Part shown: piece by piece, positions 10,339-26,701 of the stretch
Layout of the letters: each line of letters begins with the position of its first letter
How positions within the stretch are numbered: position 1 is the stretch's first letter
Virus record (IMG/VR): IMGVR_UViG_3300017783_004154
Coordinates: 1 to 26,701 of that record
Length of the DNA stretch: 26,701 bases
Source: a virus
Reading direction: 5' to 3' (one strand)
Translations under genes and position numbers: made by a program
The notes under the pieces: model-generated
Database searches by the model: none
Told to the model about the DNA's origin: nothing
Seen by the model: the letters and a program-made list of their open reading frames with translations, nothing else

Positions 10339-10346
10339 GATAAATA
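10339..10346 (+). promoter_or_regulatory. Late-promoter-like box before the tail-fibre gene
   Basis: GATAAATA (10339-10346) is identical to the box at 3680 and resembles the T4-type late promoter TATAAATA. It lies 30 nt before the ATG of a structural gene that would be expressed late. Confidence 0.5.
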
Positions 10347-10376: not shown

Positions 10377-11807
10377 ATGGCATTACGTTTAAGACGCGGA
10401 ACCAATGCAGAGCGATTGTTAATAACGCCTCTTGAAGGTGAGCTTATATATGCAACTGATACCAAGAAATTATACATTGGTGACGGTGCAACAACAGGCG
10501 GTAATCTAATTGAATCAGCTGGCGCTGCCGGCGGTGCAACTGCGTTAGACGAGTTAACAGACGTAGATGTAGATGGCGCTCCAAACCAATCAGTACTTTA
10601 TTATAACAGTTCATCCGCAAGATGGGAACCTGTTGCGGTTAACACATTATTTGATGTTGCTAACTTAACTGTTGGACAAAATTTACGTATTGACATTGTA
10701 GGACAAGATAGTACACTAATTGTTGATTCAAATACAAGTAGCGTACACTTAGGTAACAATCAAATAGGCGACTTAGACAAAGTTGTTATTACAGGTACTC
10801 CTGCTCAATATACTCCTTTAGCATGGGACGGTGCTAATTGGATCAACACAGATAATGTTGATGCAAGTATTTGGGATGATGGCACAAAAATTATCGACAA
10901 TGTAGCAAGAAGTGCTAAAATAGATATGTACACAGATGCTGGTCAAAAAACAATTGATCACAATTCAGGTAACTTCTTTTATCCAGATGGCGTACAAATG
11001 ATCGACGGTGGACTAAAGGCGTTTGCTGGCGATGTACAAGGTACAATACAAGGTAACGTAGTAAGTCAAGACTTACTTGTAACTATGGTTGATGCTACAG
11101 CACAATCAGTTACAGCACCAGGTGGTATTACAGGTGATTTAAAAGGTTCAGTTGTAGGCGATGATAGTACTGTTATGGTTGACGGTGTTTCCGGAACAAT
11201 AGTAGGTGCTATAGTAGGTTCAACTGCATCATTTAGTGGACAAGTTGATATTAATGCGGCTACTAACATAGAAGGCAATATACAATTAGGTGCAACTTCT
11301 ACAGCAGATTATACACTTAACGTTTATTCAACTACACATGGTTCCTTTGGTACAAGTATTATTGGTGTTCAAAATATTGGCGACACAGCAGTAGCAAACG
11401 AAATTGGGTTATCTAAATTTAGAGGAACAGTAAGTGCAAGAACAGCGGTACAATCAGGTGATTCATTAGGTGGTATTGCTTGGGCAGGCGCTGAAGTTGA
11501 CGGTGGTTCAAGTGCAGTTGCAGGTGCTATTCGTGCTGTTGTTACAGCGGCTCCGGGCACAGACAGTATTGAAGCTGACATACAAATTCTTACAAGAGAT
11601 GGCTTAATTGCTAACTATGATGAAGCACTTCGTGTTAGACATGACAAAGTTACAGCGGCAAGCGGCGCATTTAAGTTAGTAAACTATGCAGATACTACAG
11701 CAAGAGATGCGGCTATTCCTACACCAGAAGCTGGAATGATGATTTACTTAACTGCTACTAATAAAGCACAAGTTTGGAATGGTTCTGCTTGGACAGACTT
11801 ACACTAA
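10377..11807 (+). CDS. Tail-fibre-like structural protein
   Basis: A 476-residue protein. Residues 3-50 (RLRRGTNAERLLITPLEGEL, then YATDTKKLYIGDGATTGG) match the short N-terminal domain found in phage tail fibres and in the major tropism determinant (Mtd) group, where it attaches the fibre to the tail. The shaft is Gly/Thr/Asp-rich beta sequence with a degenerate repeat: IVGQDSTLIVD (107-117), a related block at 218-239 and VVGDDSTVMVD (259-269). The C-terminus (437-476) has YADTTARDAAIP and QVWNGSAWTDLH, common at fibre ends. It probably binds the host surface. AGGAG and a late-promoter-like box precede it. The minus-strand modification block begins right against its 3' end. Confidence 0.82.
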   Translation: MALRLRRGTNAERLLITPLEGELIYATDTKKLYIGDGATTGGNLIESAGAAGGATALDELTDVDVDGAPNQSVLYYNSSSARWEPVAVNTLFDVANLTVGQNLRIDIVGQDSTLIVDSNTSSVHLGNNQIGDLDKVVITGTPAQYTPLAWDGANWINTDNVDASIWDDGTKIIDNVARSAKIDMYTDAGQKTIDHNSGNFFYPDGVQMIDGGLKAFAGDVQGTIQGNVVSQDLLVTMVDATAQSVTAPGGITGDLKGSVVGDDSTVMVDGVSGTIVGAIVGSTASFSGQVDINAATNIEGNIQLGATSTADYTLNVYSTTHGSFGTSIIGVQNIGDTAVANEIGLSKFRGTVSARTAVQSGDSLGGIAWAGAEVDGGSSAVAGAIRAVVTAAPGTDSIEADIQILTRDGLIANYDEALRVRHDKVTAASGAFKLVNYADTTARDAAIPTPEAGMMIYLTATNKAQVWNGSAWTDLH

Positions 11808-11824
11808 TCAAATAACTGATTAGT
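11803..11824. terminator. Hairpin at the convergent junction, weak bidirectional terminator
   Basis: ACTAATCA (11803-11810) and TGATTAGT (11817-11824) form an 8-bp perfect stem with a 6-nt loop, spanning the stop codons of the fibre gene (plus) and the last minus-strand gene. Neither side has a good U-tract. Confidence 0.4.
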
Positions 11825-12382
11825 ATCATATAATTCTACAATTTCATTAAACGGTATATCAGTACTAAACTGACAGTGAAATCTAAAGTCATCTGTTTCG
11901 TTTAATGCGCTGTGAAATTCTTGTAAATTAAAAATAATAGCATCTTCTGTTTCATAAGTTGCAGTGTATTCATTCTTAAATACTGCTTTATCATAATTTT
12001 CATAAGTGCCACTTTGTAAAGTCCAAAACTGTGTTGGTCCAAACTTTGATCTATCTTGTGGATATATAGGAAGACTTATAACACTTATTCTTGGCACATA
12101 TGGATTATATTGATCTATATGTATCTTACCTACAGTATAAGGTGTTTGTCCTAATATTTCATAATGAACAGGCACTTTAAAACGCTTGCCCACTTCGTCC
12201 ATTAATTCTGTTGGCATGTAGTCTTTAGGGCAATACCAGTTCCAATCAGTTTTACCATACTTGTCCGGCTTAGTACCAGTATATGCAAAATTATCTTTGT
12301 TTGCTAATATATGTTCAACAAGTTTATCTTGTGTTTCTTGTGTAAAACTTAATCCTTTAACATATTGGCAATAAGGTCTCAT
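11804..12382 (-). CDS. 2OG-Fe(II) oxygenase-like protein
   Basis: A 192-residue protein with the double-stranded beta-helix triad: H88-I-D90 in KIHIDQYNPY, H157 in LQEFHSALN and R167 in DDFRFHCQF. The strand SVISLPIYP after the HxD is typical. Likely a 2-oxoglutarate/Fe(II)-dependent oxidase; substrate unknown. It is the last gene of the long minus-strand block, and its stop overlaps the stop region of the tail-fibre gene. AAAGGGAG precedes the ATG, while the start overlaps the end of the adenylate-forming gene by 4 nt. Its place next to the fibre gene makes a structural protein one possible substrate. Confidence 0.75.
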   Translation of the reverse strand: MRPYCQYVKGLSFTQETQDKLVEHILANKDNFAYTGTKPDKYGKTDWNWYCPKDYMPTELMDEVGKRFKVPVHYEILGQTPYTVGKIHIDQYNPYVPRISVISLPIYPQDRSKFGPTQFWTLQSGTYENYDKAVFKNEYTATYETEDAIIFNLQEFHSALNETDDFRFHCQFSTDIPFNEIVELYDTNQLFD

Positions 12383-13080
12383 ATCTTTCTCCCTTTGTAG
12401 TACATCCTTTTACTCATATCAAGTGCAACAATATCTCCTGTTGCAAACCAGTCATCGTAAATACTTGTTGGTCCTTTAACATGTAATTCATGATTGATAA
12501 TTTTCCAATCGCAATAGTAAGTATCGCCTAATATAGTATACTGTTCAAAGCAACGTTCTTTAACATGCTTTACCTTTTCCATACTATCAAACTCTATGTT
12601 TATAGTAATTGGTCCTATTTCACTCATTCCCCAGTTAGGTTGTACAATAGCACCTTTACTTACAAATGCTTCAATCATTTCCCATGTAACAGGATCACTG
12701 CCACCTAATATACGCTTGCCTGTTAGATCACAATTTAAAAAGCCTTTTGTGTTCATTAATGCAGTCATTTGTGCAGGAGCAAGGAAAGTATGTGTATAGT
12801 CCTTAAAGTCCTTTAGAAATGTAAATGCGTTAAATTGCTGTACTTTGAACTCTGCGCCTAAACTATATGCAGGCAATGTTTGCGTTAATAAGCCGCCTGC
12901 ATGGGTCATACGTGTTACTGTAAGCACCTTAGAACGCTTTGTAAGCTGTTGTGCGTCAATAGCAACATCTATGCAAGCTCTTAAGTTATCTGGTGTTCTA
13001 AGAACCATCTTAGGCTTGCCTGTAGTGCCACTACTACTTATTTCAACACCTTTAGTAAGTATTAGTCTATAATCTATCAT
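12379..13080 (-). CDS. Minimal ANL-superfamily adenylate-forming enzyme
   Basis: A 233-residue protein with the core motifs of acyl-CoA synthetases and NRPS adenylation domains: SSSGTTGKPK (15-24, ATP-binding loop), NWGMSEIGP (149-157), WFATGD (211-216) and a terminal YKGRK (228-232). Full-length relatives have about 350-550 residues. This one lacks most of the N-terminal domain before the P-loop and stops exactly at the hinge, so the C-terminal subdomain with the catalytic Lys is absent. It may still bind ATP and an acid, form an acyl-adenylate with help from another protein, or be inactive. It is closest in style to MenE-like (o-succinylbenzoate) ligases. ATGA overlap with the upstream GMP reductase gene. 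Confidence 0.82.
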   Translation of the reverse strand: MIDYRLILTKGVEISSSGTTGKPKMVLRTPDNLRACIDVAIDAQQLTKRSKVLTVTRMTHAGGLLTQTLPAYSLGAEFKVQQFNAFTFLKDFKDYTHTFLAPAQMTALMNTKGFLNCDLTGKRILGGSDPVTWEMIEAFVSKGAIVQPNWGMSEIGPITINIEFDSMEKVKHVKERCFEQYTILGDTYYCDWKIINHELHVKGPTSIYDDWFATGDIVALDMSKRMYYKGRKI

Positions 13081-14108
13081 TGTTCATACTTTGCTAAACT
13101 ATTGTTAATTTGATTGTTTACTCTAACAAACGTTGTACGCTCGTATAGCATGTTTATATGCTCTGCACCTACATAAGTGCATATACTACGTAAACCGCCT
13201 TGTATTTGCTTTATAACGCTTATTATAGACCCTTTACACGGTACTAATAGATCTCTACCTTCGTTAGGTCTATATTCTTGTTCTGTAGGATTATGGTTAT
13301 TATACATAGTTGTACTACCAAGCCCATAAAAGTTTACATACTTTTTACCGTCTATTTCTACGATATTATCACATTCTTCTGACTTAGATACCATACCTGC
13401 TACCATTACCATTTGTGCGCCTGCACCTATTGCTTTGCATACATCTCCAGCAGTAACACATCCACCGTCTGATATAATCTTTGCACCGTGCTTGTTTGCT
13501 TGCTCATAGCAATCCATGATTGCACTTAACTGTGGTATTCCTGTACCTACTTCTGAACGTGTTCGGCAGGCCGCGCCACTTCCTACTCCTACTTTTATAT
13601 AATCAGCACCAGCATGTACTAATTGTTCTATAAGTTCTGGTGTAGCAACATTTCCTGCACATATGTTTATATGAGGGAATAATTCTCTATAGTATTTTAT
13701 TGTGCTAATCATGCCTTGTTTGTTTGCATATACATTAGCAATGTCAACATTTATAAATCCTATGTCAGGATATTTAGACACTACTACTTTAGTTTTTTCT
13801 ATATCCCAGGGCTGTACGCCGCTTGTAATAGCTATAAACCGCCGATCTTGCATAGTTTCTAACTTAGCAATATGTTGGTCTTTTGTATATTCTTTGTGTA
13901 TAAATGTAAAAACTTTAAGTGGAGTAAGTAGTTTAGCAATACTATAAGTACCAGTACTGAGCATATTTGACACTATAACAGGCGTTGCTGTAGTGTCTAA
14001 CCAATCTATTTCTATATCAACATTCTTGCGTGTTAGAGGTTTATCACTTGCTCGTGGCTCTATTAGTACATCACTGAAGTCTAACTTTAGATCTTGCTTT
14101 ACTTTCAT
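13077..14108 (-). CDS. guaC: GMP reductase (IMPDH/GMPR family)
   Basis: A 343-residue TIM-barrel enzyme. Visible family motifs: DFSDVLIEPR (10-19), FINVDIANVY (118-127), ICAGNVATPE (149-158), VGVGSGAACRTR (173-184) with the catalytic-type C181, and KIISDGGCV further on. There is no CBS insert, and the length matches GMP reductase (about 345 aa) rather than IMP dehydrogenase (about 490 aa). The enzyme reduces GMP to IMP with NADPH. In this phage it could rebalance purines or feed an unusual nucleotide pathway. The ATG directly abuts the stop of the upstream radical SAM gene. IMPDH-like chemistry is the alternative; the symbol is given on length and motif grounds. Confidence 0.85.
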   Translation of the reverse strand: MKVKQDLKLDFSDVLIEPRASDKPLTRKNVDIEIDWLDTTATPVIVSNMLSTGTYSIAKLLTPLKVFTFIHKEYTKDQHIAKLETMQDRRFIAITSGVQPWDIEKTKVVVSKYPDIGFINVDIANVYANKQGMISTIKYYRELFPHINICAGNVATPELIEQLVHAGADYIKVGVGSGAACRTRSEVGTGIPQLSAIMDCYEQANKHGAKIISDGGCVTAGDVCKAIGAGAQMVMVAGMVSKSEECDNIVEIDGKKYVNFYGLGSTTMYNNHNPTEQEYRPNEGRDLLVPCKGSIISVIKQIQGGLRSICTYVGAEHINMLYERTTFVRVNNQINNSLAKYEQ

Positions 14109-15062
14109 TTAGTATCCATTTTCATTTAATTTTACGTGTTCATAAAAAGGAGCAAGTTTCCAGTCTGGTGTAATGCGTCCTCTACGTACACTACCTGGAT
14201 CAGGTATACCTTTTTCGTTTTCTGTATCCCAATCTGTCAACTTAACCCAAATACCTTTATATCTAAACTTAGGATCATGTGTGGTATCAACAGGGTATTC
14301 TATTCCGCAAATTTCTGGAGCACCTGCATATCTATGGTTAATTTTATAAAAGTCCCAAATGTATTTTTCCGGCAAATTAAATTGTTTTGCAGTTATACGT
14401 ACCAAGTCTTCCATCTTCCAGTTTTGGTCTTCACCTTCCATATACCTACCAATTTGTCCTACATTCTTAAAACGCAATGTTACATTTTTTATATCAAGTT
14501 CTTTGATTAAGTTCATCATACGTGTAGGTGCCTCATCGTTTACACCTTTAACTAATATAGTACCTAAATCTAAAGAAAATTTGTTTGCAACATTTTTTAG
14601 TGCTTTTAATTTTTTTGTTGCACACGGCATATCATCAATTGCTGTATACCAATCGTCTCTATCAACTCCATTCATACTCATGTATAAATGCGTTAACCCT
14701 ACATCTACTAATTTTTGTACAAAACTTTCACTGGATAAGCGTAAACCATTTGTAATTAATATACACATGTGACCTGCATCTAAAACTGTTCTAATAAATT
14801 CTATACAGTCTTTGTGGAGTGTAGGCTCTGCACCTATTATACGAAACATACGTTGAGCGTGATTTGGACCAACTGGCACACGTTTAATAAATTCTTTAAA
14901 TTTTTCTAACTGCATGTCAGGTGGTAGTCTATTGGGTAAGTAGCAATTCTTACATTCCATATTACATCTATGTGTTACATCAACAAATATATCTGTAAAA
15001 ATATTATCTTCAGGCTCCAGTTCATAATAGTCTAAATTTTTAAGATCAATTATTTTAGTCAT
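14109..15062 (-). CDS. Radical SAM protein
   Basis: The start at 15062 is chosen because GGAG stands 8 nt before it; the frame stays open 48 nt further upstream inside the neighbour. The protein has 317 residues. The cluster motif is CNMECKNC (C33, C37, C40) in FVDVTHRCNMECKNCYLPN, and the GGEP-like strand reads FRIIGAEPTLH. A C-terminal part after the barrel (about 230-317) has one Cys and many aromatics, without a clear SPASM motif. It overlaps the B12-type radical SAM gene by 8 nt. The two consecutive radical SAM genes may act in succession. Substrate unknown. Confidence 0.88.
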   Translation of the reverse strand: MTKIIDLKNLDYYELEPEDNIFTDIFVDVTHRCNMECKNCYLPNRLPPDMQLEKFKEFIKRVPVGPNHAQRMFRIIGAEPTLHKDCIEFIRTVLDAGHMCILITNGLRLSSESFVQKLVDVGLTHLYMSMNGVDRDDWYTAIDDMPCATKKLKALKNVANKFSLDLGTILVKGVNDEAPTRMMNLIKELDIKNVTLRFKNVGQIGRYMEGEDQNWKMEDLVRITAKQFNLPEKYIWDFYKINHRYAGAPEICGIEYPVDTTHDPKFRYKGIWVKLTDWDTENEKGIPDPGSVRRGRITPDWKLAPFYEHVKLNENGY

Positions 15063-16554
15063 TATAGATCTCCAGCTTTTTCCTTTTGTATGCTTGAATA
15101 GCTTCAGCATATAACTTATTTAAGTTTCTTTTAATATATACATCCCCAGCTGTGAATGTAAGCAATTCTCGATGATCAAATTTTGTTAAATGTTCAGTCA
15201 TATCAAAATTGAATAATTTTTGTTTCATAAAATATTTTTCCATATATGAGTCTGCAAATTCTGTTGCTCTTTTAAAGTTACTCCATTCACTTTCCCATAC
15301 TAATACTCTGTTGTCTAATTTATTATTTTGTTGCCCTACTGATTTAAGATTATTAAATCCTTTGCTATCTGCCCAATCAAGTACATCTTTATCTTTAGTA
15401 AGTGTATATCCATATTTTTCTGCATCAACACTAAAGTCACTTTGCGTAGTATTGTCTTGATCAGTGCTTATATGCAATCCCCAATAGAAAAAACTTTCCC
15501 AGTTTTCAAGCATCCAATCTAATCCTTCTTGCCAAGATTCTTCTGGTTCAAAAGGTAATCCTGCAATCATACCACACGTTCCTCGATATACTCCGATACG
15601 CTTAAGAAACTCTTCACGTATCCAAAGTAGTCCTTTTTTAATTTTATCAGGGTGCATACCTTTGCCAATTGCTTTGGCGGCAAGTGGATGTAGTGTTTCA
15701 ATACCATAAAAATGCATCCAACATCTTGCTCTACATAATAATTCAACTTGTTGAGGACGAGCTATGACTAAGTCTAATCTAATAAAACAACTAAAATTTG
15801 GTTCGAATGGTAATCGCTCAACAACATTAGCAAGTTTTTCTATCTTGCTATCTCTATCATTAAATGTATCATCACTTATAATATAATTTTTTGTACCATA
15901 CAATGTATAGTTACGCATTATTTCGTTGTAAATATCTTCTTCACATCTACTATAGTCTTCCTTAACACCTAAGAATGCATAGTTACAATACTTACATTTA
16001 AATTTACAGCCTCTTGAAAGTTCTAAAGTAAGTGCTTCTTCTGGCTCTATAAAATCATTAGACGTATATTCAACATCAAACTTTTCGATATCTAAACCAG
16101 TATAGTTTTCGTTTGCATCAACCAAATAACTATTAGGTGCCCATTCAGGATATTTTCCTTTTGGGTGCAATAACGATTTATTAAACATCCAATCTAACAC
16201 AGGACGTAGTGCATACTCGCTATAACCATATACCATAACGTCTGCACCATAATCTATTTGATAAGGTTTAGGACCGCCCATAAGTATTTTTGCGTTTGGA
16301 TAATTGTCCTTTATGTAGGCAATTTTTTCAAGAATCATATCATCTTGCATCCATAAATTGCTTATACCAAATAGGTCTACCTCATAAGGTAAACTATCAA
16401 CAAACTGTTTAATTTCTTCATTGGACCAACGAGAAATCCAATCCAATACTTCGACAGTCCATCCGTCGCTTCGCATCATGTCAGCAACTTTGTATGCTCC
16501 CATAGTTCTTCTAACGATGTTTTCACCGCTCTCGTTTAAGAAGACTGCGTTCAT
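15055..16554 (-). CDS. B12-binding-type radical SAM protein
   Basis: A 499-residue protein. The N-terminal 130 residues look like a cobalamin-binding Rossmann domain (GAYKVADMMRSDGWTVEVLD, then AKILMGGPKPYQ), although the DxHxxG cobalamin motif is not visible, so B12 may not be bound through a lower His ligand. The radical SAM motif CKFKCKYC (C183, C187, C190) sits in LELSRGCKFKCKYCNYAFLG, followed by an FNDR/FEPNFSCFIRLD barrel layout as in class B enzymes. The C-terminal 150 residues are helical. This family does methylations, cyclisations and C-S or C-C bond formation. ATGA overlap with the methyltransferase upstream. Confidence 0.85.
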   Translation of the reverse strand: MNAVFLNESGENIVRRTMGAYKVADMMRSDGWTVEVLDWISRWSNEEIKQFVDSLPYEVDLFGISNLWMQDDMILEKIAYIKDNYPNAKILMGGPKPYQIDYGADVMVYGYSEYALRPVLDWMFNKSLLHPKGKYPEWAPNSYLVDANENYTGLDIEKFDVEYTSNDFIEPEEALTLELSRGCKFKCKYCNYAFLGVKEDYSRCEEDIYNEIMRNYTLYGTKNYIISDDTFNDRDSKIEKLANVVERLPFEPNFSCFIRLDLVIARPQQVELLCRARCWMHFYGIETLHPLAAKAIGKGMHPDKIKKGLLWIREEFLKRIGVYRGTCGMIAGLPFEPEESWQEGLDWMLENWESFFYWGLHISTDQDNTTQSDFSVDAEKYGYTLTKDKDVLDWADSKGFNNLKSVGQQNNKLDNRVLVWESEWSNFKRATEFADSYMEKYFMKQKLFNFDMTEHLTKFDHRELLTFTAGDVYIKRNLNKLYAEAIQAYKRKKLEIYND

Positions 16555-17174
16555 ACCTTTTTACCTATGTAATTCCAACAAGGATAATCGCCCCATTCTT
16601 TAAATGAAGGTAATAAATCAGGCTGTAAGTATGCAGTATCGAATATTGTGTTTTCTATTTCTTCTTTTTGTAATTGGGGAGGCTTGTATTCTTCTGTACT
16701 TAATTCTTTATCTACTGCTCTACCTGATTGACTGCAATACAAACCTTCTGTGACTAATACATCATATATACGCTGTAGATATTTTTCTCTGTGTTCTGTA
16801 GGAATAAAATGATACAATCCAAAGTCGAAAACTGCATCATAGTTATTGCCTGGTAATTTGTCATTTAGGGCATCAAGACAAAAAAAGGTTGCTTCTGACT
16901 CTTTTGCTTTTGCAATATCAATTGCACTTTGTGATAAGTCGACACCTGTCACAGTATACCCCTGCTTGGCCAATGCTGTTGTATTACGTCCTGCACCACA
17001 ACCAATATCAAGTATTTTTGCACCTGTAGGTATGTACAAGCAAAACTTTTCTAATGCATTTGCAGGTGCTTCGCCCCACGCAGGTACAGAATCACCATCA
17101 TATATTTTATTCCAAAACTCTGGTAATTCTACTTCGTATGTGTCTAACTTTTTGTTAACCGGGTACGTTTGCAT
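16551..17174 (-). CDS. Class I SAM-dependent methyltransferase
   Basis: The frame is open to 17225, but the stretch before Met at 17174 overlaps the neighbour deeply; I choose 17174 (207 residues, 20-nt overlap), though 17192 is possible. Motif I is LDIGCGAGRN (55-64) and motif II is GVDLSQ (77-82), with a typical DAVFDFGLYHFIP motif IV region. N-terminal FWNKIYDGDSVPAWGE resembles small-molecule methyltransferases of the thiopurine/tellurite-resistance (TehB) type. It lies upstream of two radical SAM genes and downstream of two oxygenase-like genes, suggesting a role in the same pathway. The substrate cannot be told. Confidence 0.87.
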   Translation of the reverse strand: MQTYPVNKKLDTYEVELPEFWNKIYDGDSVPAWGEAPANALEKFCLYIPTGAKILDIGCGAGRNTTALAKQGYTVTGVDLSQSAIDIAKAKESEATFFCLDALNDKLPGNNYDAVFDFGLYHFIPTEHREKYLQRIYDVLVTEGLYCSQSGRAVDKELSTEEYKPPQLQKEEIENTIFDTAYLQPDLLPSFKEWGDYPCWNYIGKKV

Positions 17175-17754
17175 TAAAGTCTCGTAAAGCATTTTCGTAA
17201 GTATCTTCGTAACCCCATGTTGCAATTAACCTGGGATTAGGATCTACTTTATTTGCTTCTTTGTTGAGTACTCCGTGTGGCTTTGAAGTATTAATAAGAA
17301 CAGGAGTGTCTTGTATTGCATATTCAACAGCAGGAGTAGAGTTAACTACATATTCTAAATATTCATTAGTATACCATGTACCCCAATCATTACCAAAGTA
17401 ACCTTCTATGTAAGGTGCTGTTTCACCGCCTTCATGAAATGTTGTCAGTTTGTTTGGCCCTGTATTTGCAACAGGTATAGTTATACTTACACGTCTATGG
17501 TTATCTACATGAACCGGCCATGTAGGTTCTGAATTTTTAAGAACTTTAACATAAGGAAATAACTTAGGAAAGTTATCTCTTAAAACTTGTAGATACGGAT
17601 GATCTTCTACAGCAATTGGATATACATCAGTAAAATGTGCTAATCCTCCTATGTCTGTACTATTCAACCATTCGTCTGTAACAATAGTTTTACAAATATC
17701 ACTTATATATTTTACATTAAATATATTCGGTATTTCACAATAATAATCATTCAT
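17155..17754 (-). CDS. 2OG-Fe(II) oxygenase-like protein
   Basis: The start at 17754 is chosen for its ATGA overlap with the upstream gene and AAAGGATG 6-13 nt before it; the frame runs open for 39 nt more. The 199 residues hold H82-V-D84 in WPVHVDNHRRVS, H160 in NTSKPHGVLN and R175 in PNPRLIATWGY, in the order of 2OG-Fe(II) oxygenases. A Tyr/Trp-rich insert (residues 115-145) may cover the active site. The gene directly upstream encodes another triad protein of about the same size; the two are only distantly alike and may oxidise different positions or substrates. Confidence 0.75.
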   Translation of the reverse strand: MNDYYCEIPNIFNVKYISDICKTIVTDEWLNSTDIGGLAHFTDVYPIAVEDHPYLQVLRDNFPKLFPYVKVLKNSEPTWPVHVDNHRRVSITIPVANTGPNKLTTFHEGGETAPYIEGYFGNDWGTWYTNEYLEYVVNSTPAVEYAIQDTPVLINTSKPHGVLNKEANKVDPNPRLIATWGYEDTYENALRDFNANVPG

Positions 17755-19089: not shown

Positions 19090-19342
19090 CTAAAAATTCC
19101 ACTTTCTTAAGTTGTGGGTCATCAGGCAATTTTTTCTTGAGTTCCTTTAGTCTATTAATACGCCACTCCAATAATTTGAAGTCAAGTACCCAAGGAAAAA
19201 TGGCATGAAGTAAACTTCCTATACAAATAGCAAACAAGAAGAAAAATTCTCCAATTGCTAAACGGAAATGCCACCAGTAGCCAGCGTCAGGACGACCAGC
19301 TTTGCTTTTAGCTTCCCGTAAATGGTTAGGATTATACCACAT
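19082..19342 (-). CDS. Small membrane protein (DUF6356-like)
   Basis: An 86-residue protein with one clear membrane segment: EFFFLFAICIGSLLHAIFPW (32-51). It follows an amphipathic, positively charged N-terminus (HLREAKSKAGRP) and ends in a basic then acidic tail. The GSLLHAIFPWVL pattern resembles the DUF6356 small-protein family, though this comes from memory. AAAGGATA lies before the ATG, and the start overlaps the GNAT gene by 11 nt. In an otherwise enzyme-filled block it could anchor an enzyme complex at the membrane, but that is inference. Confidence 0.75.
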   Translation of the reverse strand: MWYNPNHLREAKSKAGRPDAGYWWHFRLAIGEFFFLFAICIGSLLHAIFPWVLDFKLLEWRINRLKELKKKLPDDPQLKKVEFLDE

Positions 19343-19886
19343 AGTTATTTTGTATCCTTTCTCGTCTTTGTAAATATTCCTCTACGTTTAGTTTCCAAAG
19401 AGTTTGATTAGTGTAGTATAACACAATATCACCACAGTTGTCAAGTATGTTTTGCCTTGCCATTAACTGCATAGTTCGATGGTTGCGGCTTGCTTTACCG
19501 TTACTGTGTTCATGATCTACGTTTGTTGTAATATATAATTCATTACTCGGACACCAATCTATAAACTTAGGAACAAATTCTCTAAACGTAATGCTGTTCC
19601 ATTGTGCTTTACCTAAACCTTTAAAGTTATCACTATAAGGTAATTCGCAACCACGGAACAATATACGCCATGCATGATCACCTACTTCTGGCAGTGGATG
19701 AGCACCGGCCACAGCAACAATTTTATCATTGTCAACTGCACACCAATATTCTCCTGTCTGTTTACACCATAATAATTTCATGGATTGTAAACTTGAATTG
19801 TTTTGATATCCTAATTTATCGCACTCTTGACAGAATGTTTGTAGCATATCTAAATGTTTGTCGGTGATAATTTCTATACTTAGCAT
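19332..19886 (-). CDS. GNAT-like N-acetyltransferase
   Basis: A 184-residue protein. The pattern EYWCAVDNDKIVAVAGAHPL (47-66) is the beta2-beta4 part of a GNAT fold, followed by WRILFRGCELP and a Cys/Asn-rich C-terminal half (SRNHRTMQLMARQNIL). The canonical Q/RxxGxG/A acetyl-CoA loop is not clear, so activity is not certain. No ribosome binding site stands before the ATG. A 30-nt gap (19887-19916) upstream is the longest in the minus-strand block, and a promoter could lie in or near it, but no clear boxes were found. Confidence 0.65.
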   Translation of the reverse strand: MLSIEIITDKHLDMLQTFCQECDKLGYQNNSSLQSMKLLWCKQTGEYWCAVDNDKIVAVAGAHPLPEVGDHAWRILFRGCELPYSDNFKGLGKAQWNSITFREFVPKFIDWCPSNELYITTNVDHEHSNGKASRNHRTMQLMARQNILDNCGDIVLYYTNQTLWKLNVEEYLQRRERIQNNYVV

Positions 19887-19916
19887 ATATAGTAGTTACC
19901 GTTTTTTTGGTGAAGT

Positions 19917-20528
19917 TTACTTAACTCTGAACTGCTCGAACAAAACGTCAAAGCTCTCTTGGTTAAGTTCGTAATTTACAACTAACCAATAGCTCGGTTT
20001 AGATGTACTGTTAAAAAGTTCATGCTCTTTTGCTGTATCAAGAAAGTACAAAACATTAGGTTCAAAATTAAGTGCTTTGCCTTCCATAACAAATGTACAA
20101 GGGTTTTTCAATGCCGCTATTAAGCGTACATGATGAAAATTATTTTTATAGTAATCTCTATGTTTAGGAAAGTATCCACCTGGATTTAATTTTAGTACAT
20201 GTGTTCTAAACATCCAAGGTTGATATGGTAGCAAAAATTTACGTAAATCAGGACTGTCATAATATACAGGTGTAGGAATAGTAAAGTCCCGTTCTTCTAT
20301 TTCCATATCATGTTCTTTGTTATATTCCGTTAAACTGTCAAGATCGGGTACTCCGCTTACACCGCCATCTAAACTTGTAATGCTTAGGCCTTGCCTATCG
20401 ATTTTCTTGCGTGGATTATATTGTACATATTCAAAGTTTTCTTCAGTCCAGTCAATAAACTTAGTGCCGTTTATTCTGCTATTGAGAGGTATAAAAGATC
20501 CGTAATTTAATAATTGTGAATATAACAT
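19917..20528 (-). CDS. AspH/2OG-type oxygenase-like protein
   Basis: ATG 20528 is chosen: it shares one base with the upstream stop (TAATG). The 203-residue protein has KLNPGGYFPKHRDYY (113-127) with H123-R-D125, then VRLIAALKNP, LNFEPNVLYFLDT and AKEHELFNSTS with H169. This is the pattern of the aspartyl/asparaginyl beta-hydroxylase branch of 2OG oxygenases, in which the acidic ligand can be variable; here all three metal ligands are visible. The N-terminal 90 residues are unlike known domains. Protein hydroxylation is a reasonable guess; the target is unknown. Confidence 0.75.
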   Translation of the reverse strand: MLYSQLLNYGSFIPLNSRINGTKFIDWTEENFEYVQYNPRKKIDRQGLSITSLDGGVSGVPDLDSLTEYNKEHDMEIEERDFTIPTPVYYDSPDLRKFLLPYQPWMFRTHVLKLNPGGYFPKHRDYYKNNFHHVRLIAALKNPCTFVMEGKALNFEPNVLYFLDTAKEHELFNSTSKPSYWLVVNYELNQESFDVLFEQFRVK

Positions 20529-21373
20529 TAGTTGCACCAAACCTTTTTCAATGTTGCTGTATTAAGTATTTTAAAATATTCAGTTTCGTCTTTATCTTTA
20601 AAAAGGCGACCTAAGGGTATTTGTCCAAAACTATTTTTAGGTTCATCAGGATCGTAACCGCCAGTCTCCATCCATTGCCGCATTTTAATAATACGCTGTT
20701 GTTGAGTTCCATATGCTGTTGTTTTAAAGGTCATATTAAAACTGGGGCTCCACTGTGTGAGTGGTACTGCTGACGATGGCTGTTTATATGCCTTCCATTG
20801 TTTTTCCCATTCTTGTCCCACTGCATTATAATTTAAGTATAACACATAAGGTTCTTTCCAGGGTGTAAACAATTTATAATCACTCTCTTCAAAATCGTAC
20901 TTAGGTACGTTAGGTTGGCCTGTTTTGGGATCAACAAACCTAAATCGTATACGAGGAAAGTTTTTTACTTTTTTTGATTTTGCTTCTAACAAATGTATTA
21001 TATCATTAAGTAAACCCCTATCTTGCCTTGCAATATCTTGATCGTGTGCTTGTTCTACCCACGTATCATCTTTTGCAATATTTTCATATATTAAATGTAC
21101 ATTATATAAATCATCAAGGGTATATTCATCTAATATCATAGTAATAGGAATTGTATTAGGCACATGGCTGTTTATTTTTTCAATAATATTTTGTAAAGGT
21201 CTCCATGTTTCATCTTCAATATCTGTACCCTGACTTTGTAGTTCCCAATCTGTGCTTTTAGGCACAAGATTGTTTACTTGCTCAAAGTTAGCATACCAAC
21301 GTCGAGTAAAGTCATTATCATACAAATGAAATTCGAATTTTTTTAAGTTTGTAAATTGAAAATGTATTCTCAA
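20528..21373 (-). CDS. Unknown protein with TTG start, 281 aa
   Basis: I choose TTG 21373 as start: it overlaps the upstream stop as TTGA and has AAAAAGG with 8-nt spacing. An ATG at 21415 lies 46 nt inside the neighbour with no such support. The protein begins (M)RIHFQFTNLKKFEFHLYDN. It has a charged helical middle (DQDIARQDRGLLNDIIHLLE) and an aromatic, basic C-terminal half with several Trp. No catalytic motif, Cys cluster or membrane segment is seen. It sits between the radical SAM paralogues and an AspH-like oxygenase, so it may be a substrate-recognition or partner protein; I cannot name a family. Confidence 0.72.
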   Translation of the reverse strand: MRIHFQFTNLKKFEFHLYDNDFTRRWYANFEQVNNLVPKSTDWELQSQGTDIEDETWRPLQNIIEKINSHVPNTIPITMILDEYTLDDLYNVHLIYENIAKDDTWVEQAHDQDIARQDRGLLNDIIHLLEAKSKKVKNFPRIRFRFVDPKTGQPNVPKYDFEESDYKLFTPWKEPYVLYLNYNAVGQEWEKQWKAYKQPSSAVPLTQWSPSFNMTFKTTAYGTQQQRIIKMRQWMETGGYDPDEPKNSFGQIPLGRLFKDKDETEYFKILNTATLKKVWCN

Positions 21374-21657
21374 ATTTTGTGCCTTTTTGTTTTCAAATCT
21401 GCTACACACGTACAACTACGTTTTGTACAAATTATATTATCTTTAGGCAAGTTCCATACTTCGTCATCAACGTGGCCAATAGGGCCGCCCATTTTACATG
21501 TACCTCTAAACAATGAACCATCTGAATAAATGTCTATACTTTCTGTACCTATACCACAACTCCAACCTTCAAAATTTACTGCTTCAGCTTTTACTAAGTC
21601 GTTTGCCCAAACTTCTTCTGACTCAGTTAGTGTGTATACTTTTAAATCAGGCTTCAT
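21370..21657 (-). CDS. Free auxiliary Cys-rich domain, related to the N-terminus of a nearby radical SAM enzyme
   Basis: A 95-residue protein with cysteines C34, C54, C77, C82 and C84 (CX19C, then CX4CXC). The same spacing and the flanking GW.C, dG.l/vyG..C and IICxxxxCxC patterns occur in residues 30-79 of the radical SAM protein two genes upstream, so the two are homologous. There the domain is fused ahead of the radical SAM core; here it stands alone, just downstream of a core that lacks it. It likely binds an auxiliary Fe-S cluster in trans. It overlaps the upstream radical SAM gene by 11 nt. Confidence 0.8.
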   Translation of the reverse strand: MKPDLKVYTLTESEEVWANDLVKAEAVNFEGWSCGIGTESIDIYSDGSLFRGTCKMGGPIGHVDDEVWNLPKDNIICTKRSCTCVADLKTKRHKI

Positions 21658-22327
21658 CTATTTGCTCCAACATCTTAAATCTAAACTCAGTGTTATTTAA
21701 AAATTCTAATTGATCGGGATTATAAACTGGTTCATAACCATTAGGTCCCCATTTTTTTCTAATACGTTTCATGCTATATCTTATTTCATTGTTCTCACAA
21801 AATTTAACAAGCCTTACTGCTTTGTCCCAAAACTCTGGCTCCATCATAAGATTCAAACTTATATGTTTGTGCTGTTGCTTTTGTGCTTCTGCATGAGCTG
21901 TAACTAATTTATTTTCAAATTCATCTGTAGTCTCTAAATATTCGAAATGACTACTAAACTGTATAACATCAATTTGTTGTATTAATTGTTTGTAGTAATT
22001 TGCTGTTCTTGATCCATTAGTATTTAATCCTACGATCCAACCGTTTTTAGATTTTAAATGTTTGCATAATTTACTAAAGGCAGGGTTTACTGTAGGTTCT
22101 CCGCCTGTAAACCATATACGTACTTTAGGCTTAGGACTATTCAATTCAATCTTGTCTGCAATAGTTTTTAAGTTTTCAAAATCTCTGTGAGGACTGTGCA
22201 TGTCATGCAAGTTATCAGGACAATACACACAATTATAATTGCAACGTTTGCCTATATTCCAATGCACGTAAAAATAGTTTTCATCACGTGTAGCTTCCAT
22301 TGCTATTATGTCTTTATAGTCTACCAT
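21647..22327 (-). CDS. Radical SAM core protein, paralogue of the upstream gene
   Basis: A 226-residue radical SAM core: WNIGKRCNYNCVYCPDN with C29, C33 and C36, and FTGGEPTVNP with GGEP at 75-78. Strong similarity to residues 128-313 of the protein encoded immediately upstream (WNLGRRCNYDCSYCPS, FTGGEPTINP, FTNTNGTAS/GLNTNGSRT) shows a tandem duplication. It lacks the N-terminal Cys domain of its paralogue, which is supplied by the next gene. The start overlaps the paralogue's end by 7 nt. Radical SAM enzymes of this layout often modify peptides or small molecules; substrate unknown. Confidence 0.87.
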   Translation of the reverse strand: MVDYKDIIAMEATRDENYFYVHWNIGKRCNYNCVYCPDNLHDMHSPHRDFENLKTIADKIELNSPKPKVRIWFTGGEPTVNPAFSKLCKHLKSKNGWIVGLNTNGSRTANYYKQLIQQIDVIQFSSHFEYLETTDEFENKLVTAHAEAQKQQHKHISLNLMMEPEFWDKAVRLVKFCENNEIRYSMKRIRKKWGPNGYEPVYNPDQLEFLNNTEFRFKMLEQIDEA

Positions 22328-23262
22328 TGTCCGTTCCTAATATAGTGTAGTTGTTGTTCATTGTATGGATATAATTTATTGTCATCTGCTTTGTCTACTA
22401 ACGGCTCTGCATTTACTTTAAGTCCGTAACTTAGTAGTGTATCAATTATATCTGTATATTCTTTATCAAATGTCAACGGCATCATCATTTTTACGTATAT
22501 ATTTAAACCTTTTAACTTTTCAAGTTTTTTAACTAATTTAGGTAACACTGTAAATTCTTCGTGTACACTTAGATATAAGCCGCCAACTTCGGCTAATCTT
22601 TTAAGTTTCTTTACACTCGCTGTCCCGTTAGTGTTAGTAAAGACACTTACTCCTTGGTGACTTACTGCATACTCTACCATTTCTATATAGTCTGGATTTA
22701 TTGTAGGTTCTCCGCCTGTAAATGTAAATTTAATTTTTGGTTGTTGTATTTGTTTATATAGATTATCAAATGCAATCTTAAATCTTTCTAAACTTAGGTG
22801 TGGACTGAAGTTATCGTGTACTGTAGACGGGCAGTAACTACAATCATAATTACATCTACGTCCAAGATTCCAATTAATTTGGAATGTTGCATCTGGACCA
22901 AACTTTTTGTCGTCTATTATTGCTTCTACATCTTGTAAATCTTTTACTACTGGATAGTTGTAACTGTGGTCTATAGTTGGTATAATGCCTTTTGTTTTTT
23001 CTTTAGGTATGCCGATGTCACTCGAACAATAACAACTTGCCGCTGGACAAATTATAGGCTCAGTGGGCAACTCAAATCCTTTATACACATTCCCGTATTG
23101 TCCGCTATGCTTACATACATTACCATACACGTATCCATTCATATTAATCCATAAGAAATCATGACCGCTGTAACAATGCCAACCCTTAAACTTATTGTTG
23201 TTTGCTTTGTATACTCCGTAATCTGCTTGTACTATTTTGTCTTTTGTTTTTGCGATTATCAT
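22321..23262 (-). CDS. Radical SAM protein with N-terminal auxiliary Cys domain
   Basis: ATG 23262 is chosen for its ATGA overlap with the upstream gene; a GTG at 23274 is also open. The 313-residue protein has an auxiliary domain with C30, C50, C72, C77 and C79, then the radical SAM core with CNYDCSYC (C137, C141, C144) and TGGEP near 182-186. Having the auxiliary domain ahead of the core is unusual; SPASM and twitch domains normally lie C-terminal. A paralogous core and a separate copy of the auxiliary domain follow directly. The three genes look like products of a duplication and shuffle, perhaps forming a heteromer. Confidence 0.87.
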   Translation of the reverse strand: MIIAKTKDKIVQADYGVYKANNNKFKGWHCYSGHDFLWINMNGYVYGNVCKHSGQYGNVYKGFELPTEPIICPAASCYCSSDIGIPKEKTKGIIPTIDHSYNYPVVKDLQDVEAIIDDKKFGPDATFQINWNLGRRCNYDCSYCPSTVHDNFSPHLSLERFKIAFDNLYKQIQQPKIKFTFTGGEPTINPDYIEMVEYAVSHQGVSVFTNTNGTASVKKLKRLAEVGGLYLSVHEEFTVLPKLVKKLEKLKGLNIYVKMMMPLTFDKEYTDIIDTLLSYGLKVNAEPLVDKADDNKLYPYNEQQLHYIRNGQW

Positions 23263-24407
23263 AATTCTAACCACTTTCTGGTTAATGGACCTAATACATC
23301 TTGTGCTTGCATTTTCCTTTGTTGCAAAAACAGAATTACTTGCTCTCTTACCTTTGCCATAGGCACTTGAGGATTGTGTACTAATCTTTTTTGTAGACGC
23401 TCGCTAACTTGCTCTTTTGTGTGTTCAATAATACTTGCAGGAGCGTTTGAATAATTTAACGGATGATGCACAGGTTTAATTTCACAACTCCACCAAACTT
23501 GATCAATGTAACCATTGTCTGTAAACCATTTTTCCATTTCTGAAATATACTCTAAATTAAGTATGTTTACTAACGGATTTATTTTAAACTGTATATTATC
23601 AGCTTTATTTTCTTGTAGAAATTTTAAATTGGCTGCCATTTTCTCAAATTTATGCGGCCATCTAATAAAATCATAGTTGCTGTGTATTCCGTCTATACTG
23701 ATACGCATTAAAGATGTTTTGAACTGTGCAAGTTGATCTAACACTTTTTGGTTTATGATTGTTCCATTAGTTGTTACTTCAAAATTGCAATCGTTTGCAT
23801 ACCCTTGTTCTAATGCTTCGCCAATTTGGTCCCAGTTATTTTTTAAAAAAGGCTCACCGCCTATAACTTTGAATGTATGAACTTTATAAGTTTTTAGTAT
23901 GTCAGCAATAAACGTACCTAATTTAGGCTGTTGTGCATCAACCTCTATGTCCCAATTAAAAGGAATAGTATCCATTTTAGATGCAGTTTTTGCTATTAAA
24001 CTGCTGGCTGAAGGACCGCAGAAAGGACATGCTAAATTACATTCGTTACCTAAAACAATATCTAATCTGTTTATATCATATCCTCTATGCTCATTGTTTA
24101 ATTGCTTTTGGTTAATGCCCAAACGGGGACTTTCTATGCCTGCTTTTTCTTGCAAAATACAACGATTACAATCTGGAGGTAGATAAGAATTTTTCTTAAA
24201 ATATTGTTTATACCAACTATTAGAGGGGTGTTCAAATATATCTTTTGCATCTGATACAGGAACAAATTTCTTTATACTTGATTCGGTAAATTCGTTTGCT
24301 ATATTACAACAGGGTTTGCGTCTAAGGTATAACTGTCCATTTTGTTCCATGAAGTGTAACCTCATACCCTTGTCTACGTATGCACAATAGTTCTTTTTCT
24401 TGGCCAT
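23259..24407 (-). CDS. Twitch-type radical SAM protein
   Basis: A 382-residue protein. The radical SAM motif is CNLACPFC (C123, C127, C130) in DIVLGNECNLACPFCGPS, and GGEP lies at 183-186, followed by VTTNGT and RISIDGIHSNYDFIRWP, typical of the twitch/SPASM group. An N-terminal region holds CC at 33-34 and CNRC (80-83), which could bind an additional cluster. The C-terminal 60 residues are helical. Its start shares one base with the methyltransferase-like gene upstream, a pairing I recall for this family in marine phages, which is not checked here. Substrate unknown. Confidence 0.87.
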   Translation of the reverse strand: MAKKKNYCAYVDKGMRLHFMEQNGQLYLRRKPCCNIANEFTESSIKKFVPVSDAKDIFEHPSNSWYKQYFKKNSYLPPDCNRCILQEKAGIESPRLGINQKQLNNEHRGYDINRLDIVLGNECNLACPFCGPSASSLIAKTASKMDTIPFNWDIEVDAQQPKLGTFIADILKTYKVHTFKVIGGEPFLKNNWDQIGEALEQGYANDCNFEVTTNGTIINQKVLDQLAQFKTSLMRISIDGIHSNYDFIRWPHKFEKMAANLKFLQENKADNIQFKINPLVNILNLEYISEMEKWFTDNGYIDQVWWSCEIKPVHHPLNYSNAPASIIEHTKEQVSERLQKRLVHNPQVPMAKVREQVILFLQQRKMQAQDVLGPLTRKWLEL

Positions 24408-25108
24408 TACTTTAGCCCAATTAACATATATCGTGTGTACTTAGGCATTTCTAAACTGCCTGAGTAGCAAAGTGTATCCATGGGTGCTTTAGAAGCAAAT
24501 TCTTCAACGCTACTAACGCAATTGACATGTTCTTCAATAGCAACATAATTGTTGCTCTGTAAACATATAAGTTTACCTGCAGGTATTTTACTATACCATT
24601 CATCAAAATTTTCTATGTGTTCGCAACTTGTGTTTATGATAGTATCAGGATGATCTGTAATATCATAACTCATTCTATTGTTGGCTTTGCTCCATGTCGT
24701 CCATGTATGCTCATTATAGTCTATATCCATAATGTCTTTTGTAACTGCCTTAAATTTCCAACTTTGCAATACTTGCGGTTTGTTTATAGTATCTGCAATA
24801 TCTAAACAACTTTCGTCTATGTCAAAGCTACGCATTTTTTCAATACTTAAACGGCTTTGAAATAACATAGCGGCAAGTGTAGCATACCATCCTGCACACA
24901 AATAAACTGTGCCTAAAGGAATACCTAACTTTTCTAACTCCTTTACTAACCAACGTTTGCTTTTTAGTTGTCCCCAACTTAAAGCATCTGAAAGATCTGC
25001 ATCACAGTTATCAACAGCATTACGAAGATTATTAAACAAAGGATTGTCCGTAAGAACAAGCATCCTTCCAAATATATCTTTATCGTCTTGCCATTTTATA
25101 TTAGGCAT
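24407..25108 (-). CDS. Class I methyltransferase-like protein (Rossmann fold)
   Basis: A 233-residue Rossmann-fold protein. Motif I is degenerate: TVYLCAGWYATLAAML (67-82) instead of a GxGxG loop. The acidic strand-2 end is MRSFDIDESCLDIAD (92-106), and DTIINTSCEHIENFDEWYSKIP fits motif IV. The overall layout is that of SAM-dependent methyltransferases, but the Gly-poor loop makes SAM binding uncertain. AAGGAG stands 6 nt before the ATG. It lies between a glycosyltransferase-like gene and the twitch radical SAM gene, with 8-nt and 1-nt overlaps, so it shares their transcript. Confidence 0.75.
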   Translation of the reverse strand: MPNIKWQDDKDIFGRMLVLTDNPLFNNLRNAVDNCDADLSDALSWGQLKSKRWLVKELEKLGIPLGTVYLCAGWYATLAAMLFQSRLSIEKMRSFDIDESCLDIADTINKPQVLQSWKFKAVTKDIMDIDYNEHTWTTWSKANNRMSYDITDHPDTIINTSCEHIENFDEWYSKIPAGKLICLQSNNYVAIEEHVNCVSSVEEFASKAPMDTLCYSGSLEMPKYTRYMLIGLK

Positions 25109-25766
25109 TAAATTGCTCCTTTAACCAATCAAAATCGTTTATTAACCGAAGATCAGCGCCATTAGAAAGCCCAAACTCCCTGCCAGCAATAGCACCTTTA
25201 ATAGCGTATTCGCCGAAGGGACGGTCTCTTCCCACAGTTGTCCATATTTGTAATCTTTCATTTGTTTCATCCTCTTTTTGTCTGTCAATAATTTTACTAC
25301 TTAATTTTGCACATTCTCTAAATGCACCTTTCCATGCTTCAAACTCTCCAGTATCAAATGCTGTAATATTTGCTACTTCTTGCACAGCAATAAATTTTTT
25401 GCTAATGCTTGTAGTCATATCAGGCTTTGTTACATCCATGTTAAGTGTTAGTGTACGTGGAAATAATTTTACACCTCCATAACCATATACTAAATCATTA
25501 ATAGGATTCTGCGCACGCCAAACATGCACATGATCTAATTGATGATCTGGTACTTCGTAGTCAAACATAAAATCTTCTAATATTAAAGCATCTCCATCTA
25601 CTATCCAAAACATTTTAGTAAAACATTTTTTTGCGGCAGCAATATGTGCTTGATGTATTCCTTTAACACCATGTACACGTTTTGCCATTGGAAAGCGTTC
25701 CTTTAATTTAGAGTAATTATCCTCTGCATTAGGTTCTTCATAGCTTATGAATACAATATCATACAT
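25101..25766 (-). CDS. GT-A-like glycosyltransferase
   Basis: A 221-residue protein. The N-terminus MYDIVFISYEEPNAEDNY and the segment KMFWIVDGDALIL (51-63) give a nucleotide-binding strand and a D57-G-D59 motif like the DxD of GT-A glycosyltransferases. The C-terminal half (GEYAIKGAIAGREFGLSNG) is less typical. The size is small but fits single-domain GT-A enzymes. With the sugar-nucleotide dehydrogenase directly upstream (8-nt overlap) it suggests a uronic acid or related sugar being added to something. The acceptor might be a phage protein, phage DNA or the host surface; sequence does not say. Confidence 0.7.
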   Translation of the reverse strand: MYDIVFISYEEPNAEDNYSKLKERFPMAKRVHGVKGIHQAHIAAAKKCFTKMFWIVDGDALILEDFMFDYEVPDHQLDHVHVWRAQNPINDLVYGYGGVKLFPRTLTLNMDVTKPDMTTSISKKFIAVQEVANITAFDTGEFEAWKGAFRECAKLSSKIIDRQKEDETNERLQIWTTVGRDRPFGEYAIKGAIAGREFGLSNGADLRLINDFDWLKEQFNA

Positions 25767-26701
25767 TTCTTGTGTTACCGTAGTGCCTTACTTCACAGTT
25801 ATCATTAGTATACTTTCTCCAAGGATCTACAACAACACTATTATTAGGTATGTCACAATATAGTTTGTCAGTGTCATCGCCTTCTTCTTGCATATATTTG
25901 TATGTTGTACTTGCACTATGCGCCAAAAGCATTACACAAGGTTCCTCTGGCCTGTTATCGTCTCCAGTCAATGGATCAATATATGTTGGTTCGAAATCGT
26001 ATTCTGCACAATAATGACCTACCAGCAAACTGTAACTGCCGTCAGTATATGGTACACCAGGCTTATATGCTTTGCCGTGTATATAAATTGGCATGTTCTT
26101 TTCATTGGCAATATCAACAAGCGTAATTGCTAAATTTTGTGCTTGTATTTCTCTTGCGTTCATAATACTATCAAACAAATCATAACCTAAGTCTAATTCT
26201 TTTGCAAGGAAACGTAAAGCAATATTATCACGTGGATGACATGCTCCGCCATCGCCCATACCAGCTGTCATATACTGCGGACCCATAATGCGTTTTGTAC
26301 TTTTTGCTAATGCGTTTGTAACAACATCTACATCAATGTTACCTTGTATTTCAGCGACATCTTGTATCATGTTCACTAATCCAATTTTTGCACTAATAAA
26401 TGTATTGTAAAATACTTTGATACATTCGCACTCGTCCCACGTACCAATTTCGTAACGTGGTTCATTTTCCATAATAGTTTTATAAAAATCTATTAGCTCA
26501 CGTGCATCACCGTTGATGTCACCGTCTTCTGTGCCAATCATTACCATTTCAGGATTGACCATATCCCATGCTACACTGCCCATTGCAATTAAGTATGGAT
26601 TATAAACAAATCTTGGATTAGTAATTCTTGTTATAAATTCACTACGCACTGTGCCTGGTAAGACAGTACTAATAAGCACAAGCAATTGATCTTTGTGCAT
26701 A
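25759..26701 (-). CDS. UDP-glucose/GDP-mannose-type dehydrogenase, partial (start outside window)
   Basis: Only the C-terminal 313 or so residues are inside the window; the NAD-binding Rossmann domain lies beyond the right edge. The visible part starts at LLVLISTVLPGTVRSEF and includes the central helical domain (ECIKVFYNTFISAKIGLVN), the catalytic Cys region MGDGGACHPRDN with C154 (counted from the edge), and the C-terminal nucleotide-sugar domain (YKPGVPYTDGSYSLLVGHY). The family oxidises UDP-glucose, GDP-mannose or similar sugars to uronic acids. The sugar is unknown; the GACHPRD sequence differs from the common GSCFPKD. It precedes a GT-A-like glycosyltransferase in the same transcript. 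Confidence 0.85.
   Translation of the reverse strand, partial: MHKDQLLVLISTVLPGTVRSEFITRITNPRFVYNPYLIAMGSVAWDMVNPEMVMIGTEDGDINGDARELIDFYKTIMENEPRYEIGTWDECECIKVFYNTFISAKIGLVNMIQDVAEIQGNIDVDVVTNALAKSTKRIMGPQYMTAGMGDGGACHPRDNIALRFLAKELDLGYDLFDSIMNAREIQAQNLAITLVDIANEKNMPIYIHGKAYKPGVPYTDGSYSLLVGHYCAEYDFEPTYIDPLTGDDNRPEEPCVMLLAHSASTTYKYMQEEGDDTDKLYCDIPNNSVVVDPWRKYTNDNCEVRHYGNTRNV

Follow-up and report, generated by a model that had tools for sequence, protein, structure and literature searches.

A conserved operon of uncultured marine T4-like phages that probably makes an unusual chemical group for the infected-cell surface or a small molecule

Introduction

An auxiliary gene of a phage typically encodes one enzyme taken over from the host. 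Natural-product clusters of the proteusin type, such as that for polytheonamide, combine a B12 radical S-adenosylmethionine (SAM) methyltransferase with other radical SAM enzymes, a 2-oxoglutarate (2OG) hydroxylase and a methyltransferase. Among marine phages, the pelagimyophages carry a host recognition cluster, placed between VrlC and gp14, for which envelope glycan decoration has been proposed (PMC7029224), and flavin-dependent halogenases of cyanophages are on record as marine viral enzymes (Gkotsi 2019, as cited in PMC10452541). Here we describe a conserved operon (20540-11804, minus strand) in a viral DNA of 26,701 bases, the whole of IMG/VR record IMGVR_UViG_3300017783_004154 (hereafter the window). 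We tentatively, and at somewhat less than even confidence, read this operon as encoding a single biosynthetic pathway, which belongs to uncultured marine T4-like phages and whose product decorates the envelope glycan of the infected cell. Stated more broadly, the pathway probably makes an unusual chemical group for the infected-cell surface, or a small molecule.

The locus resembles the pelagimyophage cluster in that both belong to T4-like marine phages and both hold fibre genes, glycosyltransferases (here putative), a nucleotide-sugar dehydrogenase and radical SAM cassettes in a variable island (PMC7029224). In contrast to that cluster, a conserved operon here adjoins the variable part, and no close homologue of its AT4, AMPb, DUF6356 or B12rS proteins (described below) was found in any INPHARED phage, HTVC008M included. 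A search of the cultured phages in INPHARED returned no AMPb, DUF6356 or B12rS, and its AT4 matches were distant (about 25% identity); the conserved core was encoded by none of those phages. With proteusin-type clusters the operon shares a putative B12-type radical SAM protein, other radical SAM enzymes, a 2OG hydroxylase and a methyltransferase, but it adds an aminotransferase, an adenylating enzyme, a GNAT and a GMP reductase, and no precursor peptide was recognised, small open reading frames (ORFs) not having been screened for precursors. The cyanophages are likewise T4-like marine phages with a gene of the tryptophan-halogenase family, whereas in some relatives of the window the halogenase lies within a conserved biosynthetic operon.

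Results

Twenty minus-strand genes fill positions 11804-26700 in the ORF listing, with gaps of at most 30 nt and most adjacent genes overlapping. A first-pass annotation, made from the sequence alone, had correctly described a nearly gapless block of 15 kb, although it counted 19 genes. The block is two units, a conserved operon of 12 genes (11804-20540) and a variable unit (20528-26700). AspHyd (19917-20540) is taken as the opening gene of the operon because a short divergent intergenic region precedes it in several relatives. Block proteins were scanned with Pfam, NCBIfam and PHROG profiles, and the genes of the conserved operon are as follows.

19917-20540, minus strand: AspHyd, oxygenase, first gene of the conserved operon (PF05118, E 4e-4, just under the cut-off)
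19332-19886, minus strand: GNAT-type acyltransferase (weak profile match to the solved GNAT 3t9y, E 2e-4)
19082-19342, minus strand: DUF6356, small protein with a hydrophobic stretch (PF19883, E 5e-4, below the cut-off)
18244-19089, minus strand: AT4, class IV aminotransferase (PF01063, E 6e-35)
17751-18281, minus strand: OX3, Fe(II)/2OG oxygenase (H78, D80, H138 and R149 invariant)
17155-17793, minus strand: OX2, oxygenase by motif alone (H95, D97 and H173 invariant)
16551-17225, minus strand: MT1, class I SAM methyltransferase (PF13649, E 1.2e-19)
15055-16554, minus strand: B12rS, B12-binding-type radical SAM protein (PF04055, 55.3 bits)
14109-15110, minus strand: rS_A, radical SAM protein (PF04055, 54.5 bits; CNMECKNC)
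13077-14108, minus strand: GMPR, GMP reductase homologue (PF00478, E 1e-59)
12379-13080, minus strand: AMPb, truncated adenylate-forming (ANL) enzyme (PF00501, E 8.5e-16)
11804-12382, minus strand: OX1, Fe(II)/2OG oxygenase, last gene of the conserved operon

The scans bore out most of the enzyme classes proposed at first pass. PF04055 exceeded its cut-off in five block ORFs, each with CX3CX2C, in agreement with the five radical SAM cores claimed, and HxD..H was invariant in all four oxygenase families (AspHyd, OX1, OX2 and OX3), OX2 qualifying by motif only. The class IV aminotransferase, GMP reductase homologue, AMP-binding enzyme and sugar dehydrogenase were each recovered by hidden Markov model (HMM) matches, and the GNAT by its weak profile match to a solved GNAT. 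Of two methyltransferases, MT1 stood (PF13649) and MT2, at 24407, did not; nor did a GT-A glycosyltransferase at 25101 find a convincing profile.

With AT4 as the anchor we obtained 38 distinct viral loci, onto which the window proteins were mapped; these relatives, cited by our L and G labels, are contig fragments and were dereplicated at 90% identity. Across the AT4 loci the order is AspHyd-GNAT-DUF6356-AT4-OX3-OX2-MT1-B12rS-rS_A-GMPR-AMPb-OX1, then a fibre gene on the opposite strand, with some genes absent in some loci. GNAT and DUF6356 lay directly upstream of AT4, and AMPb downstream, on the same strand in 19/19 dereplicated loci with enough flank, a count conditional on the presence of AT4, and AT4 was present in all 44 DUF6356-anchored loci checked. 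GMPR occurred in 14 of the 19 core loci and OX3 in 10, always together with GMPR (10/10; Fisher p 0.011, uncorrected for ancestry). Homologous genes are found, beyond chance, in fixed order across dozens of contigs, and their codon patterns indicate purifying selection (ratio of nonsynonymous to synonymous substitution rates, dN/dS, about 0.07-0.12). Since the genes do co-occur in a fixed order, the core of the block behaves as one pathway. The first-pass annotation had called for this comparison of gene order in viral contigs, allowing that the genes might prove scattered and never co-occur; instead the core order was kept throughout. Its proposal of a biosynthetic pathway, likely co-transcribed, is likewise supported by co-occurrence and layout, but not as a single pathway of 15 kb, as 20528-26700 varies by phage.

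These findings make it quite improbable that a hypervariable island has collected unrelated auxiliary metabolic genes, with GMPR serving purine supply and the rest acting separately. Such a collection would fit the variable upstream unit and the GMP reductases that stand alone in other phages, but it is contradicted by the 19/19 core order, the dependence of OX3 on GMPR, the gene overlaps and the absence of the core genes from the INPHARED cultured phages.

AT4 has an invariant catalytic lysine (K155), and its HxDxTYDV-type motif reads FGFIHCDATYDV. Its top matches among solved proteins are amine transaminases (E 3e-31); it resembles the (R)-selective ones (PDB 8zm7, 6fte) in fold class IV, in the HxDxTYDV motif and in being alignable over residues 8-257, and differs from them by a conserved phage-specific loop, WRGYPPSGNPRD. 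Bacterial class IV aminotransferases, mostly alphaproteobacterial, had no core neighbours. In AMPb, the P-loop SSSGTTG and the motifs GMSE and ATGD are invariant or nearly so in 22 sequences. The protein is without the N-terminal part and the C-terminal domain, spanning positions 170-335 of 384 in PF00501, and is equally short in the relatives examined (about 223-254 aa); alphaproteobacterial matches to AMPb were long frames only (at least 480 aa). A GNAT profile search of six bacterial genomes found nothing. The hydrophobic stretch of DUF6356 probably spans a membrane, and the homologue in L209 passes the PF19883 cut-off.

Of the oxygenases, AspHyd gave a profile match to solved beta-hydroxylases, with H127, D129 and H173 invariant. 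OX1 has invariant H88, D90, H157 and R167, and its AlphaFold model, although weak (pLDDT 69.5), matches prolyl hydroxylase-type oxygenases in agreement with the assignment, while that of OX3 (pLDDT 88) matches Fe(II)/2OG oxygenases in the PDB (E 1e-5). OX2 gave no HMM match in the family scan, and its true start may lie downstream of the annotated one. B12rS contains CX3CX2C and scored 29.8 bits against the B12-binding family PF02310 (cut-off 32.1), its top NCBIfam match being a PhpK-type P-methyltransferase (E 1e-13). PDB sequence profiles for OX1, OX3 and B12rS yielded nothing useful.

GMPR matched NF003470 with E 1.9e-95 and 320 bits, below the curated equivalog cut-off of 397. Its C181, T183 and E283 are invariant, and we take these to be the catalytic Cys, Thr and Glu of GMP reductase (GuaC). 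This gene bears on whether GMPR, together with QueE, might act on a purine or deazapurine to give a hypermodified DNA base or nucleotide, a form of the DNA decoration entertained at first pass. Although GMPR is common among the core loci, a QueE-like protein is encoded at 166-1059 (plus strand; phrog_2076, E 2e-50; no CX3CX2C motif) and some islands encode QueC-like PP-loop proteins, GMPR is missing from 5/19 core loci, a TGT/DpdA-type enzyme (PF01702) was found in 0/16 relatives' records, some of them fragments, and QueD in only 3/16. We recognised no DNA-modifying transferase; thymidine hypermodification genes were not searched for. We rejected the deazaguanine route on the TGT/DpdA and QueD counts, and consider DNA modification as a whole very improbable.

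We next turn to the parts of the operon that vary. The interval from OX3 to GMPR holds B12rS, with or without rS_A, in some relatives, a flavin halogenase (PF04820, E 8e-75) in others, and OX2 and methyltransferase genes only in further ones; the window itself has no halogenase. This variation matches how tailoring enzymes differ between natural-product clusters. A distant halogenase-family relative (23% identity) was also seen in L036 (8598-9749), between fibre and DUF6356.

AT4 is dispensable in other phage groups: with AMPb as an anchor independent of AT4, AMPb-GNAT neighbours were found also in phages without AT4, often accompanied by a DUF6356-like protein and by one of 250 aa that has a GGHxxGR-like motif. 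The latter family, seen beside AMPb-GNAT in L217 (9285-10049), L209 (8680-9411) and L227 (6724-7479), is at most weakly sulfotransferase-like. Since AMPb and GNAT stay paired when AT4 is missing, activation and acyl transfer constitute the deepest core, for which the simplest chemistry would be acyl adenylation followed by acyl transfer. Sugar-type genes accompany AMPb-GNAT elsewhere, namely a DegT sugar aminotransferase in L217 (E 6e-84) and a relative of nucleotide-sugar dehydrogenases in L233. By analogy with the pelagimyophage cluster, these genes and the position in the island favour decoration of the envelope glycan. Tripartite tricarboxylate transporter-like genes were noted by eye near the core in L209 (9926-12397), L220 (9776-11386) and L045 (13705-15536); these could import a carboxylic acid.

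The same set of enzymes could instead make a small molecule that diffuses, be it an antimicrobial, a signal or a metal ligand, in which an activated acid and an amine are tailored by oxygenases, radical SAM enzymes or the halogenase. This we regard as somewhat unlikely. The natural-product-type tailoring set, the swap of halogenase for B12-radical-SAM in one slot, the nearness of the AspHyd profile to small-molecule hydroxylases and of AT4 to amine transaminases, and the presence in some phages of AMPb-GNAT with neither fibre nor sugar genes are all consistent with it, but the HMM scans of the operon found no nonribosomal peptide synthetase (NRPS), polyketide synthase (PKS), carrier protein, condensation or ketosynthase domain, and the conserved core has no exporter.

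Upstream of the conserved operon lies the variable unit.

20528-21415, minus strand: 295-aa protein (no family match in HMM scans)
21370-21657, minus strand: auxFeS, stand-alone gene for an auxiliary Fe-S domain (cysteines patterned as in the rS_C N-terminus)
21647-22327, minus strand: rS_B, radical SAM core alone (PF04055, 52.7 bits)
22321-23274, minus strand: rS_C, N-terminal auxiliary domain plus radical SAM core (PF04055, 59.1 bits)
23259-24407, minus strand: twitch-domain radical SAM protein (NF033640, 174.7 bits, cut-off 170)
24407-25108, minus strand: MT2, possible methyltransferase, unconfirmed (no convincing Pfam family; weak similarity to spermidine synthases)
25101-25766, minus strand: possible GT-A glycosyltransferase, unconfirmed (DGD motif invariant; no convincing Pfam or PDB profile match)
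25759-26700, minus strand: UDP-glucose/GDP-mannose dehydrogenase, UGDH (PF00984, E 2.5e-16; phrog_9148, E 9e-74; cut by the window end)

UGDH, the outermost gene of the block, is truncated and misses its N-terminal ~110 residues. The cysteines of auxFeS (34, 54, 77, 82 and 84) nearly coincide with those of rS_C (34, 54, 76, 81 and 83). The unit differs among phages: L001 alone retains most of these genes in the same order, and the gene sets of other records differ and include as many as 14 radical SAM genes. Records with 12-14 different radical SAM genes per phage were G014 (33053-61623), G009 (18172-33876), G015 and G018. The islands of relatives also encode nitroreductase-like, QueC-like PP-loop and (by eye) SGNH-type proteins. 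A search for viral contigs anchored on the twitch radical SAM protein found no relatives, and for this reason the unit could not be traced through that anchor. At the DNA level, a search against cultured phages gave no match for 11804-19800; HTVC008M and a marine single-cell virus gave only a short match of about 560 bases at the UGDH end. Outside the block, split genes at 3999-4933 (plus strand) encode a separate radical SAM core of 209 aa and, after it, a SPASM-like protein of 102 aa, with an oxygenase-like gene at 5316-5813; the split gene pair recurs in relatives.

On its other side the block abuts a tail-fibre gene, as had been noted at first pass.

10377-11807, plus strand: tail-fibre gene with Mtd N-terminal domain (PF18454 Mtd_N, E 4e-10)

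The fibre and OX1 genes are convergent, their stops overlapping by 4 nt. Exo, AAA and VWA genes surround the fibre gene in many of these contigs, and structural-type proteins were seen by eye upstream of the island in G015. In the relatives' records the motif NATAAATA is rarer overall than expected, and roughly half of its copies or more are found no further than 90 nt upstream of an ORF, commonly at 17-40 nt, as would be expected of a T4-type late promoter. In the window, ATAAATA (a 7-base match) occurs at 10340, 37 nt upstream of the fibre gene. NATAAATA precedes AspHyd in G010, and TATAAATA is visible before AspHyd in L039 and L042; the late motif was not upstream of AspHyd in L012, L029, L030, L032, L035, L037 and L043.

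We considered whether the operon modifies a protein of the virion, such as the neighbouring fibre, by hydroxylation, C-methylation, acylation or glycosylation. The convergent arrangement in the window and many relatives, the codirectional fibre and core in L007, L036 and L227, and the late-type motifs in G010, L039 and L042 would suit this explanation, which we nevertheless judge unlikely. The motif is missing in the seven relatives named above, and adjacency amounts to a single inherited site. Because the AMPb-GNAT pair also occurs away from this fibre, adjacency alone is no pointer to fibre modification; it reflects one inherited site beside the conserved exo, AAA, VWA and fibre genes.

The larger relatives G003, G004, G010, G015, G018 and G022 encode a T4-type gp23 (PF07068), which the window is too short to show. 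Among the best 15 of 2515 records, the gp23 of G015 was closest to those of Sinorhizobium phage Phosso, Vibrio phage 2.275.O and PA5oct (68-70%), with no pelagiphage in that set. L045 (PBDY01000027.1), a contig placed in a gammaproteobacterial metagenome-assembled genome, was considered as a bacterial copy and rejected, since it encodes gp23; it belongs to a T4-like phage and has the same core.

Discussion

Our best reading is that a host-recognition island encodes an acylated, tailored amine, which becomes attached to the envelope glycan of the host. In the pathway that we infer, AT4 would convert a keto compound to an amine, AMPb would activate a carboxylic acid as an acyl-adenylate, and GNAT would couple the acyl group to the amine, with DUF6356 anchoring the enzymes at the inner membrane. 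Oxygenases, the methyltransferase and the B12-type and other radical SAM enzymes, or the flavin halogenase in relatives, would tailor this unit, while the variable upstream unit, with its sugar dehydrogenase, putative glycosyltransferase and further radical SAM enzymes, would supply or attach a phage-specific sugar part. A cell whose envelope glycan was so decorated might go unrecognised by competing phages.

Several points weigh against glycan decoration. In the conserved core we recognised no flippase, polymerase or ligase of the standard O-antigen pathway, the GT-A assignment is unconfirmed, and bacterial DUF6356 genes in the loci read sit in no obvious envelope gene clusters. AMPb is without the C-terminal domain, which in ANL enzymes normally completes catalysis. 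Among solved proteins, those nearest to AspHyd take free amino acids as substrates or belong to nucleoside-antibiotic biosynthesis, and a flavin halogenase would fit the making of an aromatic small molecule; this speaks for a metabolite. The activities, substrates and product of the operon are, moreover, predictions from sequence.

It is possible, at a little short of an even chance, that these phages own a natural-product-like pathway in which a fixed core of acyl activation, acyl transfer and amination is joined to swappable radical SAM, halogenase and oxygenase modules, giving diverse products that serve as a phage weapon or surface mark. Uncultured marine phages keep what looks like a dedicated pathway of several steps, in which tailoring modules are exchanged as in natural-product clusters; one island can hold up to 14 radical SAM genes. 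If the pathway makes a metabolite, it would be a new source of chemistry; a role in marking host surfaces would explain how these phages contend with their competitors.

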